Below are positions 2,569 to 33,364 of a stretch of DNA of 38,695 nucleotides, one piece after another (the first letter of the stretch is position 1; each line of letters opens with the position of its first letter). Both the position numbers and the translations under genes were made by a program. The notes beneath the pieces were generated by a model. The model ran no database searches, had not been told where the DNA came from, and saw only the letters and a program-made list of their open reading frames with translations. This DNA is from a virus, in IMG/VR virus record IMGVR_UViG_3300031251_000060, positions 1 to 38,695 of that record. One strand, written 5' to 3'.

Positions 2569-3267
2569 TCATGTTCCCTTCGTCCATAGTTTGAAGTGCA
2601 GTTCGATCATCGCCAGCGAAGCCAAATATTCCTGACTGTGAACATTGTCCGAATGCTTCTTATTCAGCGCGGCTTTGAACTCATCCACGGTGCCAAAGAA
2701 GCATCCCCGCTGCAGGCGAATGCCTTTATCAGTTCTGAACGCTAACAATTCCGCAGCATCACTCCCGATCGGCCCGAAGTAAAAAAATGGACGGGGGCCG
2801 TCATCAACCAGTGATCCGTCTTTTAATTTTGCGCCACGGAGGTAAGCGCCACTGAGGTCAGCGCCACTGAGGTCAGCGCCACTGAGGTAAGCGCCACTGA
2901 GGTCAGCGCCACTGAGGTAAGCGCCACTGAGGTCAGCGCCACGGAGGTCAGCGCCACTGAGGTCAGCGCCACTGAGGTAAGCGCCACTGAGGTAAGCGCC
3001 ACTGAGGTCAGCGCCACTGAGGTAAGCGCCACGGAGGTAAGCGCCACTGAGGTAAGCGCCACTGAGGTCAGCGCCACTGAGGTAAGCGCCACTGAGGTCA
3101 GCGCCACGGAGGTCAGCGCCACTGAGGTCAGCGCCACTGAGGTAAGCGCCACGGAGGGAGACTTTCTTTTCAACGGCAGCGGCCACCGTCAACTTAATGG
3201 AATTTTCCTTGTCTGAATGTTCAAATAGGACCGAGCCGGTGAACCGGCATTTGATTTCAATTTTCAT
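2569..3267 (-). CDS. Pentapeptide-repeat protein
   Basis: A 232-residue protein in three parts. Residues 1-38 are a small beta/alpha N-domain (MKIEIKCRFTGSVLFEHSD). Residues about 38-146 hold 21 consecutive pentapeptides of the form A-Y/D-L-S/R-G, expected to fold as a right-handed quadrilateral beta helix. A C-terminal alpha/beta domain of about 85 residues follows (GCFFGTVDEFKAALNKKHSD). This three-part layout is common in tailed phages, where its role is unknown. Pentapeptide proteins such as Qnr/MfpA mimic DNA and bind gyrase, but that activity cannot be inferred here. The ATG at 3267 has an upstream AAAGG and overlaps the previous stop. Confidence 0.9.
   Translation of the reverse strand: MKIEIKCRFTGSVLFEHSDKENSIKLTVAAAVEKKVSLRGAYLSGADLSGADLRGADLSGAYLSGADLSGAYLSGAYLRGAYLSGADLSGAYLSGAYLSGADLSGADLRGADLSGAYLSGADLSGAYLSGADLSGADLSGAYLRGAKLKDGSLVDDGPRPFFYFGPIGSDAAELLAFRTDKGIRLQRGCFFGTVDEFKAALNKKHSDNVHSQEYLASLAMIELHFKLWTKGT
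2834..3157 (-). repeat. Tandem 15-bp repeat encoding pentapeptides
   Basis: Over twenty near-identical 15-bp units (GCGCCACTGAGGTAA or GCGCCACTGAGGTCA on the plus strand, some with CGG in place of TGA) lie head to tail. They differ mainly at one Tyr/Asp codon position and one Ser/Arg codon. Because even synonymous positions are almost invariant, the array looks recently expanded and could change length by slippage without breaking the frame. Confidence 0.9.
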
Positions 3268-3560
3268 GATTTTACCTTTTTGTTTGTAGCTGGCTGCAGT
3301 TCCGCGGTCCATATGCCTTTGGCCATAGGGTCCAGCTTGATGCGGGTTTCAATTTCGTCCGGGTCGGCCTGCGGCTCGACGGTCTTGATGAAGGCTTTGG
3401 CCGCGCAGCGCAGCGCACCGAATTCTGCCTGGGACGTGCAACTGGCCGAGACGCCCACCGGCTGTTTATCCCACCGCTTTGCGCCGCCGGGGAAATAGGC
3501 GCGGAACACTTTCGTGTCCGCGCCTTTATCTGGGGATTGTTTGATGATGACGGTATTCAT
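3264..3560 (-). CDS. Unknown 98-residue early protein
   Basis: The protein opens MNTVIIKQSPDKGADTKVFR and includes a central Cys pair (SASCTSQ, ALRCAAKAF). The pattern suggests a beta-rich N-terminus and a central helix. The tail, TNKKVKS, is basic. No family is recognised. The ATG at 3560 gives a normal start and the stop overlaps the start of the pentapeptide-repeat gene by 4 bp, so the two are probably translated together. Confidence 0.65.
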   Translation of the reverse strand: MNTVIIKQSPDKGADTKVFRAYFPGGAKRWDKQPVGVSASCTSQAEFGALRCAAKAFIKTVEPQADPDEIETRIKLDPMAKGIWTAELQPATNKKVKS

Positions 3561-7498: not shown

Positions 7499-9463
7499 TT
7501 AGGTTCGTTGCCCGATCGCCCCGAGCAGGTCATCGCCGGCATTGGAGCTTTCGGAAATGGGGTTGGTATCATTTGATACCGTGGCCAGGATGTCGGCGGC
7601 GGCGTCGGGGCCTTCGGTGCGGACGCGCTGGGCGGATTCCCGCTCGGTCGGCGTGACCGGGCTGCGCCGGTTCAGCACCTCGGAATTGCTCTGCGCATCG
7701 GCGATGCGCTGGCGGGTGATCTCCGCGCCGCGGGCGGCGAGCGGGGCGAGCAGCTCCTTCTCGATCTTGGCGGCCCGGCCCATCTGCGCGTGCAGGCCGG
7801 CCACGTCGTCGCGGCGGACTTTCTGCCAGGCATCGAGCACGCCCAGCCACGCGCCGCGCGCGTCGAAATAATGCGCGGTCTGCGGCGAGAAGGGATTCAC
7901 CACAACTTCGTAGCGCTCGCCGACGGGCAGATGATGGGCGAGGAATTTGAGCGGCGCCGGGGAAATGTTCTCGTCGAGAAATTCAATCACGCGATCGTCG
8001 CCGACTTTCACTTCGCGGCCGGTCTTGGTGTGCAGCAGGGTGGCGATTTGTTCCGGGCGGAATTTCACCAGGCTGCGCGCGCCGCTGTCGAAGACTTCGC
8101 GCGGGGACAATTTGCGGGCGAGCGGCGAGGCGGCGGCGAGCACGGCGTTGCGGCGCAGCTCCTCCAGCTCCATCACGGCCGCCCCGGTGAGCAGGCCCAC
8201 GCCGGGCACTTCGTAGTCCACCGTGGTCAATCCCGCTTCCTCCCAACCTTCCAGCTCGTGATCGGTGCGGCGGTTGATGCGCTCCATGATTTCCTCCACC
8301 AGCCACTTCGCCTGGTTCACTTCCAGGAAGGGCAGCTTGAGCAGAGCGGCGCGTTCCGCCGGCAGCGCGAGCATGGCCTTGATCAGCCCGTCGGCATGGC
8401 GCTCGCGGCCGTGCAGCTCCTCGGGCAGGTTCACGCGCGAGTTGCTGCCGGTCTGGCCGGAGAACTGGAGCAGGTTGGCCGTCTCGTTGTGAATTAGATT
8501 GCCGAGCGATTCCAGCGAAGCCTTGAGACGGAAATTGCCCTTGGAGCGGCCGGCGTATTGCCCGGCGAAAGCGCTCGCGCCCTCGATGCCGCTGCGGCTC
8601 ACGGTCAACTTGCCGCCGGTCAGGTCGAATAAAACTTTTTCAATCGTCTCATTGAGCGCGGCCGTGCCGTGTTCCACGAGGAAAGTGCAGCCGTCGGCGC
8701 GATAGCCGAACGTGCCGAGGACGTGCGCGACCAGGAAAAGCATCTCGTCTTCCTTCAGGCCGACGCTCTTGCCGGTGGCCTCGTCTTCCAGGCGTGGCTT
8801 GACGCCGCGGGCGAACTGGCACCCGGAGAAAATATCGTGCGCGTGCAGCTGCAGCAGGCGCATGGCCCGGCGCTGGCCAGCGGCCACGACCTTAAAATCG
8901 TGCCACATATCGTCGAAGGTGATGAACTGGCCGACGTTCAGGCCCAGCCGGGTGGTGAAGACCAGCGGCCGGAAATCCGCCGCGGCGCTGCGCCCGATGC
9001 GCGCGGCCACGAGCTCGAATTTCGTCGGCTTGTGCCGGATCAGGTTGTCATAGGTGCAGCCGAACGGCAGCGAGTGGCGCGGGAGGAAGTTGTCCAGGCC
9101 GGGGATCTGATCGCCGCGCAGCCAGCGCCGGCGCAATTCGCGGAAGGCGGGCCGGCACTTACGGCCGTTCTGTTCGCACAGTTTTTTCCAGTAGTCCAGG
9201 AACTCCGCATCCAGTCCGCGCCCGGCGGGGACCTTGGAGCGGTTCACCAGCGTCCGCCAGTCGTTCGTCTTGCGCCATACGTCATATTTGCGGCGGGCGG
9301 TCTGGACGGAGACGCCGAGGCGGCGCGCGGCCGCAGCCAGGCTCTGCTCGATCGGGCGGGCGATGCCCTGCAGTTCCCCCAGCCATCGCGCCACGTCGGA
9401 GCGGACATCGGACGGGAGTTGGAGATATTCGGCGAGCTGAGTTTGGGGGATGAGCGAGGTCAT
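7499..9463 (-). CDS. A: MuA-like DDE transposase
   Basis: A 654-residue protein, close to MuA (663). An N-terminal HTH region (LAAAARRLGVSVQTARRKYD, about 42-61) precedes the RNase H-like core. The first catalytic Asp is D184 or D185 (ITFDDMWHDF). The second position is in LVEHGTAALNE, where MuA has Asp336 in IDNTRGAAN; here it is Glu264. The Glu is E318 (LKASLESLG). A MuA-type C-terminal barrel follows (RYEVVVNPFSPQTAHYFD). The enzyme would join phage ends to target DNA for replicative transposition. It is followed by the MuB-like gene. Confidence 0.93.
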   Translation of the reverse strand: MTSLIPQTQLAEYLQLPSDVRSDVARWLGELQGIARPIEQSLAAAARRLGVSVQTARRKYDVWRKTNDWRTLVNRSKVPAGRGLDAEFLDYWKKLCEQNGRKCRPAFRELRRRWLRGDQIPGLDNFLPRHSLPFGCTYDNLIRHKPTKFELVAARIGRSAAADFRPLVFTTRLGLNVGQFITFDDMWHDFKVVAAGQRRAMRLLQLHAHDIFSGCQFARGVKPRLEDEATGKSVGLKEDEMLFLVAHVLGTFGYRADGCTFLVEHGTAALNETIEKVLFDLTGGKLTVSRSGIEGASAFAGQYAGRSKGNFRLKASLESLGNLIHNETANLLQFSGQTGSNSRVNLPEELHGRERHADGLIKAMLALPAERAALLKLPFLEVNQAKWLVEEIMERINRRTDHELEGWEEAGLTTVDYEVPGVGLLTGAAVMELEELRRNAVLAAASPLARKLSPREVFDSGARSLVKFRPEQIATLLHTKTGREVKVGDDRVIEFLDENISPAPLKFLAHHLPVGERYEVVVNPFSPQTAHYFDARGAWLGVLDAWQKVRRDDVAGLHAQMGRAAKIEKELLAPLAARGAEITRQRIADAQSNSEVLNRRSPVTPTERESAQRVRTEGPDAAADILATVSNDTNPISESSNAGDDLLGAIGQRT

Positions 9464-9464
9464 A

Positions 9465-10205
9465 TCATTTGCGGGTGAATAGTTCGGCGATGAAGGCGGG
9501 CTGACGGTTGTTTTTCGGCATCCTTAACCAGTCGTTAATGGCCGCTGTGGTCTTCATTAAAACGCCCCGGAAAATCTCGCAGTCCTGATCTGTGTGAACG
9601 GTGAACCGCCCGCCGAGCAATTCCACATCCTTGATGATGCGGTTCATGATGTCGGCCACCAGGATCCGCTCCGCCTCGGCCTGCTCGCTGAGCGATAGCT
9701 TGCGCTTGCCCTTGCCGTGGGCTTCGTGGTTGCCGGGGGCGAGCTTGGCCAGGCCGAGCTTGCGGAAGAAATCCGTCTGCGTGAGACCGTCGGTGACTTT
9801 GGCCAGCGAGCTGGAGAGCATCTGCGTGTCGCTCTCGCTCCAGGCGCTCGGCGGCGTGGCCAGCAATGCGCGGAACCGGTCACCCAAACCGAGCTTCTTA
9901 AAGTCCGATTTCACACCCTTCGCCATGTTCATCCGCTGGCGGGCCGTCTCGTCGGACATCGTGAAGGTCTCTTCGAGATAATCCTCCCAATTCAACCTCT
10001 CCAAATCTTTTGGGGAGGTTAAATCGGTTCGGCGTCCGGGCTGTAATCCGTATTGATCACGGACTTCGATCAGGGCGAAGCCGCACATGACCTGTGAGGC
10101 GACCGAGCCGCGGGCGAATTGCGCGGCGAGATTATCCCAAAACCGCACGGCGTCTTTGGCGTCCGTGGGGATGGCTTGCTGTGGTTGGTATTTGGTGACG
10201 TTCAT
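9465..10205 (-). CDS. DUF3102-like early protein
   Basis: A 246-residue protein preceding the transposase gene. Residues about 40-100 have the DUF3102 pattern: a helix with CGFALIEVRDQYG, then WEDYLEETFTMSDETARQRM and MNMAKG, which resembles proteins that detect or bind DNA through a helical bundle. The rest is helical with a basic linker (HGKGKRKLSLSEQ). Function is unknown; the position suggests a role in transposition or its regulation. Its stop lies 2 bp before the transposase ATG. Confidence 0.65.
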   Translation of the reverse strand: MNVTKYQPQQAIPTDAKDAVRFWDNLAAQFARGSVASQVMCGFALIEVRDQYGLQPGRRTDLTSPKDLERLNWEDYLEETFTMSDETARQRMNMAKGVKSDFKKLGLGDRFRALLATPPSAWSESDTQMLSSSLAKVTDGLTQTDFFRKLGLAKLAPGNHEAHGKGKRKLSLSEQAEAERILVADIMNRIIKDVELLGGRFTVHTDQDCEIFRGVLMKTTAAINDWLRMPKNNRQPAFIAELFTRK

Positions 10206-22112: not shown

Positions 22113-22595
22113 ATGAAAACGAAATTCAACCTGTTCTTCGCGGCGCTCGGCGTCGCTTTCACGGTGCTCTGCACCATTCCCGCCCAGGCTGATGTCGGCA
22201 CGATCGACTTCGGCGTCACTAACGCCGTCATCGCGGCCAACAGCACCAACAGCGCCATTGGCACCGGCACTGTCAACATCGACAACACGATGTTTCCGCT
22301 CCTGGAGTTCAAGGGCGGCACCATCGCCACCAATGCCGCGAATGTGATCATCCCGATCTACCTCGTGGATTCCGATGGCAACGTGGCCACCACCGCGCTG
22401 ACCAACTGGAGCGTGCCACAAATCGTCGGCACACCAGGGACGCCGACCACCAACAACGTCGTGGCGTTTCTCCAGCTCACGGATGCCCAGGTCGCTGGCG
22501 CCTATGGCTTGAGTTGTCCGAACCTCGGCAACACGTCGCTCGCCGGCAACCTGCAGAGCCCGTCGCTGAAGGTGATTAAAAAGCGGATCCGATAA
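22113..22595 (+). CDS. Signal-peptide protein in the decoration-protein position
   Basis: A 160-residue protein with a clear Sec signal (MKTKFNLFFAALGVAFTVLC, then TIPAQA and a likely cut before DVGT). The mature part is Asn/Thr-rich and beta-like (AANSTNSAIGTGTVNIDNTM, then VIIPIYLVDSDGNVAT) and ends with a basic KVIKKRIR. It lies directly after the capsid gene, where head decoration proteins sit, but a Sec leader is not expected of a capsid protein. It is bounded by hairpins on both sides, as an independently expressed insertion would be. Function unknown. Confidence 0.7.
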   Translation: MKTKFNLFFAALGVAFTVLCTIPAQADVGTIDFGVTNAVIAANSTNSAIGTGTVNIDNTMFPLLEFKGGTIATNAANVIIPIYLVDSDGNVATTALTNWSVPQIVGTPGTPTTNNVVAFLQLTDAQVAGAYGLSCPNLGNTSLAGNLQSPSLKVIKKRIR

Positions 22596-26501: not shown

Positions 26502-26912
26502 ATGAGCGAGCGAGGCACACGGCAGATCGAAGTGGATGGCGAATTTCTCGCCACCTACAACGACGTGGTGAAGGCGTCGCCGATCACCGGCGGCCCCAAG
26601 TTCCAGACCGTGGAAGGCTACGGCGCTGCCAATGTCGCGTTCATCGATCTCGGCAACGAGCATCTGCACCGCCGCTACACCATGACACGCGAACACGCCG
26701 ATAACGCTGCCAGCGAGGATTGGTTTCAGACGGCCGCGCAGCAGTTCAACGGCGTTGCCGATGTGGTACTCACCCACCGCTCTTACGCCGGCGCGGAGGC
26801 GAAATACCTGATAACCGGCGCGCAGGTAACGGTGGAAGTGGACGAGCCAATCGGAGTCTGCACCATCACCACCATCAACATCAATGGCGGCATCGCCGTC
26901 CTCATCCCATGA
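26502..26912 (+). CDS. Small tail protein
   Basis: A 136-residue protein with beta-rich segments (QIEVDGEFLATYNDVVKASP, then YLITGAQVTVEVDEPIGVCT). It is a probable tail component or assembly partner by position and has no recognised family. The stop overlaps the ATG of the first fibre gene. Confidence 0.55.
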   Translation: MSERGTRQIEVDGEFLATYNDVVKASPITGGPKFQTVEGYGAANVAFIDLGNEHLHRRYTMTREHADNAASEDWFQTAAQQFNGVADVVLTHRSYAGAEAKYLITGAQVTVEVDEPIGVCTITTININGGIAVLIP

Positions 26913-27913
26913 AAATCTTGAAAAATATCCTCAAATCTTTCGCCCTGCTTTTAATCATTGGGTCCAGCGTCACGCTGGCGCTGGGGCTGACGCCGTTTTA
27001 TTATCAGGGTTACAATTCCGACGGTACGCCGCAGACAAATCTGATCTACATGAGCGCCTGGCCGCCCGCGCAGAACAGTTTTACCAGCTACGGCACCAAC
27101 ATCGTTTTCGGCGGCAACGTCATCGTGGTGCAGCCGAATGTGAATGGCTACGCCTCCAATGCGGCCTATCCGAACACCTACCGCTGTTTCATCACCAACA
27201 TCAACCAGGCGTTCACCGTCAAGCTGCTGGACACCACCAATTTCAACAGCCTGGCGTATTACCTGCAGGCGTCCGTAACCAGCACCGGCGACCAGAGCAC
27301 CTACGCGATGGTGACCAACTGGCTCGGCTACGCTCCCGTGCGGCCGACGTATGCGGCCGTGACCACGGCCTTGAACTTCACGCCCGCGACGAATGGCGGC
27401 CCGATCGCCAACAGCCAGTTGCCTTACACGCCGGCACCGAACACCTTCTCCGGCATCACCGCCGCGCTTGGCTACACGCCGCCGACGAATACTTACACCG
27501 GGCTGACGCTGGCTCTGGGCTTCACCCCGGCGACGAATGGCGGACCGATCCTGACCTCGCAGCTCGGCTTCGCGCCGGCGACGAACGCGGGGCCGATCAG
27601 CTCCGCTCAGATCGTGGCGGGCCTGGGTTACACGCCGCCCACGAACACCTATGCCGGGCTGAAGTACGTGCTGGGCTTTGTGCCGGCCACCAACGGCGCG
27701 GCGATCACCTCCGCGCAGATCACCACCGGCCTTGGCTACACGCCGGAAGTTGCCGGGTCGGTCAATTACACGGCGCTCACCAATGCGTTCGGCTATGTGC
27801 CCGCGCCGGCGTTCACCGGCTGGAATTCCAACCTGACCGTGCTGGCGGTGCAGTCCGGCGCCACCAACACGCAGCTCCTGCGTATCACCAACGGCATCAT
27901 CAATCCCCCATGA
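26909..27913 (+). CDS. Tail-fibre-like protein with Sec leader and repeated YTP units
   Basis: A 334-residue protein. Residues 1-27 are a Sec-type leader (MKILKNILKSFALLLIIGSS then VTLALG). The middle and C-terminal part (about residues 138-300) contains ten or so copies of an L-G-Y/F-T-P unit, often with PPTN or PATN, as in fibre shafts of many tailed phages (LGYTP repeats). The ATG overlaps the previous stop (ATGA), so the leader is not a start-choice artefact. It is expected to bind a host surface structure; export through Sec would be unusual for a fibre. Confidence 0.75.
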   Translation: MKILKNILKSFALLLIIGSSVTLALGLTPFYYQGYNSDGTPQTNLIYMSAWPPAQNSFTSYGTNIVFGGNVIVVQPNVNGYASNAAYPNTYRCFITNINQAFTVKLLDTTNFNSLAYYLQASVTSTGDQSTYAMVTNWLGYAPVRPTYAAVTTALNFTPATNGGPIANSQLPYTPAPNTFSGITAALGYTPPTNTYTGLTLALGFTPATNGGPILTSQLGFAPATNAGPISSAQIVAGLGYTPPTNTYAGLKYVLGFVPATNGAAITSAQITTGLGYTPEVAGSVNYTALTNAFGYVPAPAFTGWNSNLTVLAVQSGATNTQLLRITNGIINPP

Positions 27914-30900
27914 AATTCTTGAAATCCATTTTTAGCCTGGTGTTTTTAATCATCGGGTTCAGCGTCCCGGTGCAGGCCACGCTGGTGTCGTTCCCGATCA
28001 AATCCATGTTCGGCAGCACCAACTATGTGAAGCCGTTCACGGTGACGGCCGTGGCCTCCAGCATCACCGACAACACCAACTATTTCGTTGGGACCACCAC
28101 CATGGTCACGCCCACCGGTGGCACCAATCCGTTCGTGGACCTCACCCCGAATAATTATGTGGTCCAGTTCACCGACACCCGCGCGCCCTGGCGGATACAA
28201 GTGACAAACTCAGCGACCGTGCTGAATGCGCTCCAGCTCACCATCGGCACGCTGCCCACGTTTAATTATGTGCCGGTTATCGGCAGCGCGGACCTCACCG
28301 GCATTGTCCATACCGGCGGCACGACCACGCTGCTCGTCACGAATATGTCCGTGGTATCGGCGGCGTTCACCTACGTCACGAACGGGCAGAATAATTACAT
28401 CGTCGTCGGCACGTTCCCGTCCTTCGCCGGCGGTTACATTTCAAACGTTCTCTACGGTTTCCCCGGCACCACCAATGTGGACGATGGCCGCGGCCTCACG
28501 CCGCACACGCCTCCCTATCTGGCGATTAGCCTGGATGGCGGGACCACCTGGAATAATCGCGGCTCGACCAACAGCACTTGCAAGGTGGCCGTGTTCCTGC
28601 GCGAGCCTTGCTGGTGGACGAATGTGGTCATCCGCGGCTATGTCAATAATTCCGTGGTCGGCGCCACCAACGATCTCACCGATCAAAACACCTTTGTCAG
28701 CCAGCTCACCACCAATGCCAATCAGGTGGTGAATCTCGCCGGCGCCCAGACCATCGCGACCGCGGCCGCCGGCCAGTGGTCCACCTATCCGGCCGTGTCC
28801 GGCGTGGATCTCAATCAAAAGCCGCTGACGATGTCGCCGAACTGGGCGGCCTCGGTGGAAACCAACACGCTGGCCCTTTCTTTCAATTTCAACGGCTCGC
28901 CCGCCTTTCGCTATGTCCCGGCCGCCAGCGCGGTCAGTGGCGGCATGATGACGCAAATTGGCGGTTTCACGGTCACTGCAACCAACCTGCAGTTCAGCGG
29001 CAGCACCACCAATACGAATAGCCCGAACATCTGGATGACGGCCAATTTGAATCCGCCCGTGTGGATCCAACGCACCACCTTGACCAATTACATGACCGGC
29101 ACCAACTGGCACGTTTGGACCGATAAACCCACGAACAGCTTCGCCTTCTTCCGCGCCTCCTACAGCACCAACAATGCCCCGGCTCGCTTTGAAGTGGGCG
29201 ATATTGCCATCTCGGCCGATACCTCCACCAATTACATCTATTTCGCCTATCTCACCGATCCCTCCGCTTCGCTGCCGGCGGGGGTTTTGACCAATGGATC
29301 GCCGCTCGCCGCCGCCAGCCTCACGGGCATCGCCTCGCTCACCAATCTTCCCTACAAGGCGGATGGCTCCATCTGGCAGGCCATGCCGATTGCCCCGGTT
29401 TACCTCGCCTGCTCGCAGCTTATTGACGGGTATTACAGCGCCACCTACACCACCACGAACATTTGCACGAACACGGCCATTGTTCTGCGGATGCTCACTA
29501 ATCTCGCCAACACCGGCTGGACGGCCACCATGACCAATCAGGGAACGCCCCTGTGGGTTGCGCTCGATGCCCATGGTTCGCTCACCATCAATTCCAGCGG
29601 CAAGCTGGATTACAATACCAACTTTTTTCTAAATGGCCCGTCCAACTTCATCGCCACCTGCCACGCCATGGGCTGGATGGTGTCTCACGGCATGTATGTG
29701 AACAGCGAGCTTTCTCAAAACAATCCGGCCACGAATACCTGGTATTGCGCTTACAACGGCTCCGGCCTCGCCGCCAAGGCCACGTCCACGCTCACCGATC
29801 CGAGCCACTTCTACGGCCAGGCCCCGAACTTTTACACCCCGGTGATGACGCTGGCGGAGATCCCGGACCACATCAAACAGTTCTATGATTGGGGCTTTGA
29901 CGGAATATGCATGAACGACGGCGGAGTGACCGGGAAATCCTACGTCGAGATTCAAAATGCGGTTGCCTTCAATGTGATCTACCCGAAGAACAGCCAGGGG
30001 AATGTCCAATCGTGGAAATATAATTACTACGGGCGCAAGCCGATGTTTGTCATTCCCTACGAGACCATGGGGCAAGGAACGAATCTCTACTCCACGCCCG
30101 ATCTGGTGGCTACGCGCAATGGCTTCCTGACTGATCAAGGCCCGCAGGTGAATGGCATCTACGGCAATGTTTTATACTCCCTCGGACAGCTTCGCTACGC
30201 GCAGGACAATTATCCGCTCACGGTCAAATGCAATAACGGGATGCTGGTTCCCGTTGGCAGCGGCGGTGGCGTGGATACCGTCAATGCCACCGCCTCGGCC
30301 CTGGCTTCCATGCCCACCGGCGTCTGGCCGGATGTGGTCAATGTTCCCGACTCATTCAATCTGCTCACCAATAAATACTGGAACCGGATCCACAACGATC
30401 CGCTCCAGCTCTGGCCGCGCTGGGCGGTTGACGGCGGACCGAATCGCTACGCCGTTCTCGCCAAGCCGCTCGTGGACGGCAGCACGGCCGTGGGCGTGTT
30501 CTGCGATATGCCCGCCGGCGGCACCAACATCACCGCCACCTGGCAGCAGCTCGGGCTGGTGTCCGGCGCGTGGTATAACATTTACGATGTCTGGAACAAT
30601 TCCAACCTTGGCAACGTCCAGACGAATTACGCGGTGAGCATCGGGGCCGCCCAGGCGCGGCTGCTCATCTTCACCCCCACGAACCTGCTGGCGAGCATTC
30701 CGCCGGGCAACGTGATGACGAACGGCCAGCCGTTCCTGACGGCTTTTACCGATGCTTCCGATTGGCTGACTTACTCAAATGGGTTTGGTTGGTTCCGATC
30801 CTTGGGGGCATCGGCAACCAATTTTCTGTTTGATTTCAAGACGGGACAGGGAATTAAACTTAACTTTTCCGGCGCGACGTATTATCTCGGCCAAGACAAC

Positions 30901-31581
30901 AACCAGGGCAATGGATATTTGACATCAAACTACCGGCCCGGCAGCGGCGTTTTGGACGAAAACCAAAGCAGCTGGTTTATGGCATGGGGATACTCCGACG
31001 ATTCCGTTCGTTGGTTCCGCGCTCCCGCCAACGGCGCCGGCGGCGCAGCTTCGTTTGTGCAGCTTTTCCGAATGGATAACAACGGCAGCGTGACCATCGC
31101 CGGCACGAATACGGCGGCAGTGTTCAAGGGCAACGGCAATGCGCTGACGAACCTCGACGCCACCAAGCTCACCGGCACCATTCCGAGCGCGCTGCTGCCT
31201 ACCGTGCTTACCAACTTGAATAACATTAACAGCGGCTCAACTCCAACCGTCACTATTTTAGATAATCACTGGCGGCTTGATTCAATCACGGGAACCGATG
31301 GAAATCACCTTATTACATTGAGCATCACCAATACTGTGGCGGCAGGAACCGAAATCACTGTTGCAACCGTAAATTATTCTAAAGCATATCCAGCGAACCC
31401 GCTGGTGGCACTAACATGGGCAAATGTTAAATCAGCAAGAATGTCAGAGATTGCAGGCGGAACGTGCGCTTCAATTTTCACCACAACGAATTACTCCATT
31501 GTCTATTACGGAGTAGCCAGCATTGGCGGGTTCAATGTTGCCGGAACCAATCAGATTTATGTCGGCAGAGCAATGCAATGA
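27910..31581 (+). CDS. Large tail fibre with a GH27-like domain and Sec leader
   Basis: A 1223-residue protein. Residues 1-23 are a Sec-type leader (MKFLKSIFSLVFLIIGFSVP). Residues about 25-485 are Thr/Asn-rich beta structure. Residues about 485-925 match the GH27 alpha-galactosidase plan: GWMVSHGMYVN, WGFDGICMND (661-670), then LLTNKYWNRIHNDPL (about 818-832), YAVLAKPLVDGSTAVGVF (about 850-867) and SGAWYNIYDVW. The C-terminal part has a KLTGTIPSALLPT linker and an AT-richer tip. The GH27 nucleophile Asp aligns with N669, with D670 next to it, so activity is uncertain. The ATG overlaps the previous stop. Confidence 0.8.
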   Translation: MKFLKSIFSLVFLIIGFSVPVQATLVSFPIKSMFGSTNYVKPFTVTAVASSITDNTNYFVGTTTMVTPTGGTNPFVDLTPNNYVVQFTDTRAPWRIQVTNSATVLNALQLTIGTLPTFNYVPVIGSADLTGIVHTGGTTTLLVTNMSVVSAAFTYVTNGQNNYIVVGTFPSFAGGYISNVLYGFPGTTNVDDGRGLTPHTPPYLAISLDGGTTWNNRGSTNSTCKVAVFLREPCWWTNVVIRGYVNNSVVGATNDLTDQNTFVSQLTTNANQVVNLAGAQTIATAAAGQWSTYPAVSGVDLNQKPLTMSPNWAASVETNTLALSFNFNGSPAFRYVPAASAVSGGMMTQIGGFTVTATNLQFSGSTTNTNSPNIWMTANLNPPVWIQRTTLTNYMTGTNWHVWTDKPTNSFAFFRASYSTNNAPARFEVGDIAISADTSTNYIYFAYLTDPSASLPAGVLTNGSPLAAASLTGIASLTNLPYKADGSIWQAMPIAPVYLACSQLIDGYYSATYTTTNICTNTAIVLRMLTNLANTGWTATMTNQGTPLWVALDAHGSLTINSSGKLDYNTNFFLNGPSNFIATCHAMGWMVSHGMYVNSELSQNNPATNTWYCAYNGSGLAAKATSTLTDPSHFYGQAPNFYTPVMTLAEIPDHIKQFYDWGFDGICMNDGGVTGKSYVEIQNAVAFNVIYPKNSQGNVQSWKYNYYGRKPMFVIPYETMGQGTNLYSTPDLVATRNGFLTDQGPQVNGIYGNVLYSLGQLRYAQDNYPLTVKCNNGMLVPVGSGGGVDTVNATASALASMPTGVWPDVVNVPDSFNLLTNKYWNRIHNDPLQLWPRWAVDGGPNRYAVLAKPLVDGSTAVGVFCDMPAGGTNITATWQQLGLVSGAWYNIYDVWNNSNLGNVQTNYAVSIGAAQARLLIFTPTNLLASIPPGNVMTNGQPFLTAFTDASDWLTYSNGFGWFRSLGASATNFLFDFKTGQGIKLNFSGATYYLGQDNNQGNGYLTSNYRPGSGVLDENQSSWFMAWGYSDDSVRWFRAPANGAGGAASFVQLFRMDNNGSVTIAGTNTAAVFKGNGNALTNLDATKLTGTIPSALLPTVLTNLNNINSGSTPTVTILDNHWRLDSITGTDGNHLITLSITNTVAAGTEITVATVNYSKAYPANPLVALTWANVKSARMSEIAGGTCASIFTTTNYSIVYYGVASIGGFNVAGTNQIYVGRAMQ

Positions 31582-31807: not shown

Positions 31808-33364
31808 ATGGCTGATGCCGACCAGACACTGAAGATTCTCATCCAGCTCGGGGTGATCGGGGAGAAAGATGCCCAGGCGGCGAAGGATCTGCTTAAGGAA
31901 ACCTCCGCGGCTGGCGAAGCCATGAATGCCGGCACCAAGAAAACCACCGAGGCCACAGAGGAGGCAGCGGCAGCGGCGGAAAAATCCGGGCTCACCCACC
32001 GCGAGCTGAAGCGGGTTTTGCTGGATATTGGGAATATAGCGGCTCCGGGCGCGGGCCGTGGTTTGATGGAACTGGCGATGGGCCCGGTCGGAGTCGGCCT
32101 GGCGCTGGTCGGGGTTTATGAGATGGTGAAAAAGACGCTGGAGGAGGATGCGGCCGCCGCGGATAAATTTGCCGAGGAGATATCCAAACCCACCACCGGC
32201 GGCATTGAGGGGATTCGCAAGGCGTGGGATGAAGCTGCCGTGGCGCTGGGCCAGTATTACTCCCGCATGGAACACGCCGGCGAGGATGCCAATCCGGAGG
32301 CCACGCAAATCAAGCGCATCCGGGAACTGGTGGAAGTCCAGACGGAAGCATCTAAGAAAATCGTCGAGGCGCTAGGCAAGGAAGAAGTCGCCCGGATCAA
32401 GGCCCACGGTGGATCTCCGGAAGAGGTGGCCGCCGCCGAGGCGCGCACCAAGGCGCAGACGGATGCGCTGGAATCCCAAAAGGTAAAAGACACCGGCATC
32501 AATCTGCTACTGAAGGAGCGGGCGGACATCACGGCCCGATTCAGCAAAGACCAGCGCGAGGCCGAGGAGGCGCAGGCAAAGTTGCGCGAGGTGAACAAGA
32601 AGTTTGCCGATGACGAGGCGACCCTGAAAAATGCGCGGGCCTTGAAGGAAAGTGAAACCATCAAGGCGCTGATCAAGGCTCAGCAGGATAAGATTGAAAA
32701 GAATTCCGCCACGGCCGCCGATCAAAGCCCATACAACAATGCCGGGCGGATCGCGGCGCAGATGAATATTGATGAAGCCACGGCCGAGATCGAGCGGCTG
32801 AAAGGCCTACAGTCCAGGGCAGCCGCGCTGGCCAGACAGCTGGAAGGTTCCGCACCGGCACGTAACAAAACCAAAACCGACGCCGAGGAGGATGCCAAGC
32901 AGAAATCCAACATCGCCGAGCAGGATTCTAAACGTCAGCACGAGTTGCCCGGTGAAATTGACCAAGCCCAAAAAATGCAGTCCATCAGGGACCAGGCGGA
33001 AAAGCTGGCCAATGAGATTGCAACTCCGGAGGGCAGCGTCCTTCGCGCGGCCAAGGATATTGCCGCGTATGTCATTTCCAAAAAGCCGGTGTCGCAGGGG
33101 CAGCAGCAGGAGTTGGTGGACTTTGCCGATTTGCTCGAGCAGCGGATGTCCGGTCAAAAGAATTTCCATTTCAAGAACGCTACGGCCGCGGCGACCTTCA
33201 TCACCAAGACGTTCGAGAAAAATGATTTCACCGGAGTGTGGCAGATCATTCATGACGCCGTGTCGGCCGTGAATAACAAAACTGACCGGCAGCAGGCGGA
33301 CTGGCAGAAGAAATTTGCCGCGCTGCAGGCGCAGATCCGCGGCGGCGGCGGGCAAGTGCCATGA
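31808..33364 (+). CDS. Tape measure protein
   Basis: A 518-residue, almost entirely helical protein rich in Ala, Glu, Lys and Gln, with one hydrophobic patch near residues 83-104 (LMELAMGPVGVGLALVGVYE). This is the pattern of tape measure proteins, whose length sets tail length. It would give a short tail (roughly 75-80 nm by the usual 0.15 nm per residue rule). It overlaps the next gene by 4 bp. Confidence 0.75.
   Translation: MADADQTLKILIQLGVIGEKDAQAAKDLLKETSAAGEAMNAGTKKTTEATEEAAAAAEKSGLTHRELKRVLLDIGNIAAPGAGRGLMELAMGPVGVGLALVGVYEMVKKTLEEDAAAADKFAEEISKPTTGGIEGIRKAWDEAAVALGQYYSRMEHAGEDANPEATQIKRIRELVEVQTEASKKIVEALGKEEVARIKAHGGSPEEVAAAEARTKAQTDALESQKVKDTGINLLLKERADITARFSKDQREAEEAQAKLREVNKKFADDEATLKNARALKESETIKALIKAQQDKIEKNSATAADQSPYNNAGRIAAQMNIDEATAEIERLKGLQSRAAALARQLEGSAPARNKTKTDAEEDAKQKSNIAEQDSKRQHELPGEIDQAQKMQSIRDQAEKLANEIATPEGSVLRAAKDIAAYVISKKPVSQGQQQELVDFADLLEQRMSGQKNFHFKNATAAATFITKTFEKNDFTGVWQIIHDAVSAVNNKTDRQQADWQKKFAALQAQIRGGGGQVP

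Follow-up and report, generated by a model that had tools for sequence, protein, structure and literature searches.

A fibre-like phage protein with a GH27-like, probably non-catalytic domain in a putative receptor-binding-protein slot

The tailspike depolymerases of phages are mostly beta-helix, endo-acting enzymes. The parts of the literature covered by our searches hold no description of a GH27 in a fibre, and a table entry for a 'capsid fiber protein' of an Alteromonas phage lists an alpha-galactosidase hit of the HHpred type (PMC8228385). Here we analyse P0001, a fibre-like protein of 1223 aa with a GH27-like domain inside it, encoded by a phage genome of 38,695 bases (the window, that is the whole stretch of DNA analysed, which is a complete IMG/VR record). 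The terminase, portal and protease/capsid genes of this phage match PHROG head-and-packaging families, and its minus strand carries MuA- and MuB-like genes, named by their translations and by the counterparts that related phages carry. Since the relatives of the terminase, searched in one genome per species (84,980 species), lie almost all on Verrucomicrobiota contigs (the best being 69% identical), the host phylum is likely Verrucomicrobiota. The early region also encodes a pentapeptide-repeat-like protein with many LSGADLSGAYLSGA units (2569-3312, minus strand).

The P0001 gene occupies positions 27910-31581 of the plus strand, which also carries all features of the protein given below. We placed its start at the ATG at 27910 on the strength of a four-base overlap (ATGA) with the stop codon of P0002, the gene before it. 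P0002 (26909-27913, plus strand) codes for a fibre-like protein containing repeats of the LGYTP type, and it is joined to the gene upstream of it by the same arrangement. A mechanical ORF of 1565 aa starting at 26884 was rejected, its first ~340 codons being the preceding gene read out of frame. An N-terminal fibre part (27979-29382) precedes the GH27-like domain, and a fibre-like stretch, GNGNALTNLDATKLTGT (31129-31179), follows it; judging from its sequence and from a comparable stretch in the fibre of L089, the latter would be a fibre motif. The C-terminal third of P0001 (30703-31578) has a GC of 0.52 and a GC3 of 0.58, versus 0.58-0.63 and 0.72-0.84 in the rest of the gene and of the phage, and looks by composition as if it had been acquired separately. 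No whole-length homologue of P0001 was found. Pattern searches based on the domain or on the full-length protein picked up no related sequence among viral contigs or genome contigs, and comparison with the phage relatives gave no match to any part of P0001 or of P0002.

The initial annotation had recognised a GH27-like domain at 29365-30685 (aa 486-925), with C-terminal motifs close to the family and a fold deemed credible. The motifs are indeed present: LLTNKYWNRIHNDPL (aa 818-832) and AKPLVDGSTAVGVF (aa 851-864) both fall within a phmmer match to the plant alpha-galactosidase 6f4c (E=6.7e-5), and AKPLVDGSTAVGVF also lies within a match to Pfam Melibiase_C (PF17801), the C-terminal antiparallel beta domain of GH27, at aa 847-920 (30448-30669), which scores 43.6 bits for a curated cut-off of 22.9 (E=3.1e-11). 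A GH27 HMM built from 29 bacterial sequences gave 50.5 bits for the whole domain and 49.2 bits for its C-terminal part. The barrel region alone (29383-30360) reached 4.8 bits, a score equalled by 1 of 1000 shuffles, and when only the barrel was shuffled within the whole domain, 3 of 1000 shuffles did as well as the real sequence. Likewise, hhalign returned a probability of 97.6 (E=4.6e-12) for the full domain versus 13 (E=0.002) for the barrel. The HMM score comes almost wholly from the C-terminal part; GH27 homology is established at the sequence level for the C-terminal sandwich, while for the barrel it is suggested, weak but above chance. The Pfam barrel family (Melibiase_2) has no match in P0001 and would, together with the low hhalign probability, fit a GH27 origin limited to the sandwich, the preceding region having another fold and no barrel. 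We find this quite improbable given the rarity of equally good shuffles and the WGFD, CHAMG...GMY and LASMP stretches, which stand in GH27 family order. A structural ranking also argues weakly against it: Foldseek placed GH27 enzymes first for an AlphaFold2 model from a four-row alignment (~420 columns, TM about 0.3), a result that is partly circular, the alignment having held real GH27s. That model (mean pLDDT 36.6) and the one from the single sequence (30.1) are both untrustworthy.

GH27 enzymes act on alpha-Gal, alpha-GalNAc or beta-L-Arap. Their catalytic nucleophile is the Asp of a K-x-D motif after strand 4, which is invariant in two GH27 alignments and missing from a single one of the GH27s compared. 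In P0001 the corresponding columns hold C667-M668-N669, followed by D670, in three MAFFT modes, within WGFDGICMNDGG (aa 661-672; 29890-29925), so that the Asp is missing from its place; the numbering of the initial annotation, N669 in line and D670 next to it, is exact. The GHWNDPDML of GH27 aligns with VKCNNGMLV, and GWNSW is without counterpart. VKCNNGMLVPVG (30223-30258) aligns with GHWNDPDMLVVG of GH27. The acid/base Asp after strand 6 (W-R-T-T-G-D) would be D731 or D742, its placement shifting between alignments, as does that of the second-strand position (WVALDAHG or TMTNQGTPLW). With the nucleophile, the lysine of K-x-D, GWNSW and NDPDM all lost, canonical GH27 catalysis by this domain is unlikely. 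Of the two functions first considered, a cutter of alpha-Gal or GalNAc and a dead binding domain, these replacements favour the second, and we regard the domain as probably a non-catalytic, sugar-binding one.

Two other phage contigs bear on this reading. L205 (IMGVR_UViG_3300035696_000389), with sheath, tape-measure and baseplate genes, encodes between sheath and tape measure a fibre-like protein that ends in a GH27 (PF16499, 1e-31; PF17801, 3e-6) with intact catalytic motifs. L207 carries a stand-alone GH27 (8878-10176; Melibiase_2, 2e-36) with a fibre-like gene before it and small genes downstream, and its nucleophile site reads D-Y-D, the nucleophile being kept and the lysine lost. Both genes have signal-peptide-like starts. 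That these phage GH27s keep their nucleophile suggests that activity is useful in such a slot and speaks against a dead domain in P0001, as do the uncertainty of the barrel alignment when no model is reliable and the position of D670 directly beside the nucleophile place. An active glycosidase fibre could be imagined if the strand were shifted by one residue, with D670 as nucleophile and D731 or D742 as acid/base, trimming terminal sugars of the host coat. We hold this to be unlikely, considering that the lysine, GWNSW and NDPDM are lost as well and that N669 falls in the nucleophile column whichever of the three alignment modes is used. The P0001 domain is not specially close to either phage protein: GH27s from the host phylum match it best, and where Verrucomicrobiota genomes match (12 of 388), only the C-terminal part is covered and the proteins are ordinary GH27s. 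PF17801 is absent from 32 records of terminase relatives. Three further candidates were set aside: a regular GH27 on L002 (MT835685, a faecal 'Bacteriophage sp.' in GenBank), which stands beside SusC/SusD-type genes on what looks like a misfiled Bacteroidota chromosome; a GH27 on L204, which neighbours a terminase at the end of its contig and may be host flank; and a Klebsiella phage match (E=0.5), taken as chance.

The P0001 gene lies before a probable tape-measure gene (31808-33364, plus strand); neither this gene nor those of related prophages have a PHROG match, and they were named from size, composition and position. We compared this slot across thirteen stretches downstream of the terminase from the relatives' genomes. 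There the relatives encode a GDSL hydrolase fibre (L211), an S74-chaperone fibre (L217), a 790-aa fibre (L214), a tandem pair (L218), the L212 protein and, in an Opitutaceae Mu-like prophage (L216), an Mtd-like protein, all with signal-peptide-like starts. The last belongs to a complete DGR (L216:9779-13748), consisting of the Mtd-like protein, a 105-bp template repeat and a reverse transcriptase, and 13 of 13 differences between template and variable repeat fall at template adenines. No DGR was found next to the P0001 gene in the window. Because relatives carry an Mtd-like protein with a DGR, a GDSL fibre and an S74 fibre there, this position in the tail block, common to known receptor-binding proteins, very probably serves as a slot for receptor-binding proteins whose ends can be exchanged. 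The N-terminus of the L212 protein resembles those of P0001 and P0002; for P0001, whose first ~120 aa are concerned, blastp gave a weak match (27% over 127 aa with the signal-like part counted in; E=0.001-0.004), and no other slot protein matched. The designation as a tail fibre, made in the initial annotation, is thus backed by the slot and its equivalents in relatives, from which we infer a fibre role for P0001 itself.

The GH27 match, the replaced motifs, the tail-gene slot with its receptor-binding equivalents and the L212-like N-terminus lead us to favour P0001 as a receptor-binding fibre of a Mu-like Verrucomicrobiota phage, whose centre is probably a lectin-like, GH27-derived domain without catalysis. 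This centre would stem from a GH27 alpha-galactosidase/alpha-GalNAcase whose C-terminal sandwich and probably barrel persist and whose catalytic machinery (nucleophile D to N, lysine partner, GWNSW, NDPDM) is lost. The old pocket or the sandwich may bind a sugar of the host surface polymer, most likely as a lectin, with the nature of that sugar, like the binding itself, being presumed. The N-terminal part would attach P0001 to the particle, while its signal-peptide-like beginning could be a true export signal or an uncleaved hydrophobic anchor.

This beginning, which the initial annotation had not noticed, is unexpected: the cytoplasm is usually seen as the place where tail fibres are both produced and assembled, and a protein joined to tails there would not normally start in this way. 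The N-termini of P0001 (MKFLKSIFSLVFLIIGFSVPVQA, 27910-27978) and P0002 (MKILKNILKSFALLLIIGSSVTLALG) show a positive n-region, a hydrophobic core and a small-residue motif. Signal-peptide calls come from a heuristic of our own, positive for 18 of 190 genes (versus 1.7% of shuffled N-termini) with a start rule that missed P0001 and P0002, which were found in a run over all ORFs. Over all ORFs the heuristic is barely specific (58/1193 on the coding strand versus 39/959 antisense), and we therefore confine the argument to slot genes with plausible starts, which were chosen with these starts already known, and claim no formal enrichment. Small genes (150-181 aa) with signal-peptide-like starts also occur in the head/tail block of several of these phages, behind the capsid region (window 22113-22595; L210:5564, L220:4626 and L209:8604 in reverse-complement coordinates). 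In the literature as far as our searches covered it, phage signal peptides are described on endolysins (PMC6116005; PMC7696170), and no description of them on fibres was found.

Since P0001, P0002 and many slot equivalents begin in a Sec signal-peptide-like manner, we treat P0001 as a putative virion protein. These starts, and that of the stand-alone GH27 of L207, would suit an exported surface or periplasmic protein of the lysogen, outside the virion, masking or binding the coat of that cell in the exclusion of other phages or in adhesion; we give this limited credence, the genes lying inside the tail-morphogenesis block and the slot equivalents being Mtd-like with a DGR or bearing an S74 chaperone, both typical of receptor-binding proteins. 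A speculative proposal, to which we likewise assign a low probability, is that Verrucomicrobiota Mu-like phages have receptor-binding proteins with cleavable Sec signal peptides, among them the dead-GH27 P0001 and the DGR-diversified Mtd-like protein, which would be exported first and be added to the particles outside the cytoplasm, on lysis or later. If real, signal-peptide-like starts recurring on receptor-binding-protein genes would challenge the picture of cytoplasmic fibre assembly.

Under the favoured reading, as a receptor-binding fibre with a non-catalytic centre, P0001 resembles a glycosidase that has become a binding module, and the motif-intact phage versions allow a direct comparison. 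With GH27 enzymes (PDB 6f4c, 1ktb) it shares the C-terminal beta-sandwich, probably the last part of the barrel and the order of the barrel motifs, but its nucleophile, lysine partner, GWNSW and NDPDM are replaced and the domain sits in a 1223-aa fibre-like protein. The L205 fibre sits in the equivalent slot, flanked by tail genes and the tape measure, and has a signal-peptide-like start and a C-terminal GH27, yet its motifs are intact and outside the GH27 part it has no detectable similarity to P0001. Mtd-like proteins with a DGR (L216; Mtd of Bordetella phage) are comparable through the L216 slot in a related Mu-like prophage and its signal-peptide-like start, but they have a binding end of the C-type-lectin/FGE type that is diversified by the DGR. 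Finally, P0001 has in common with phage tailspike depolymerases a carbohydrate-active domain on a host-recognition protein, and differs from them in that this domain would have a GH27-derived exo-enzyme fold and is probably inactive.
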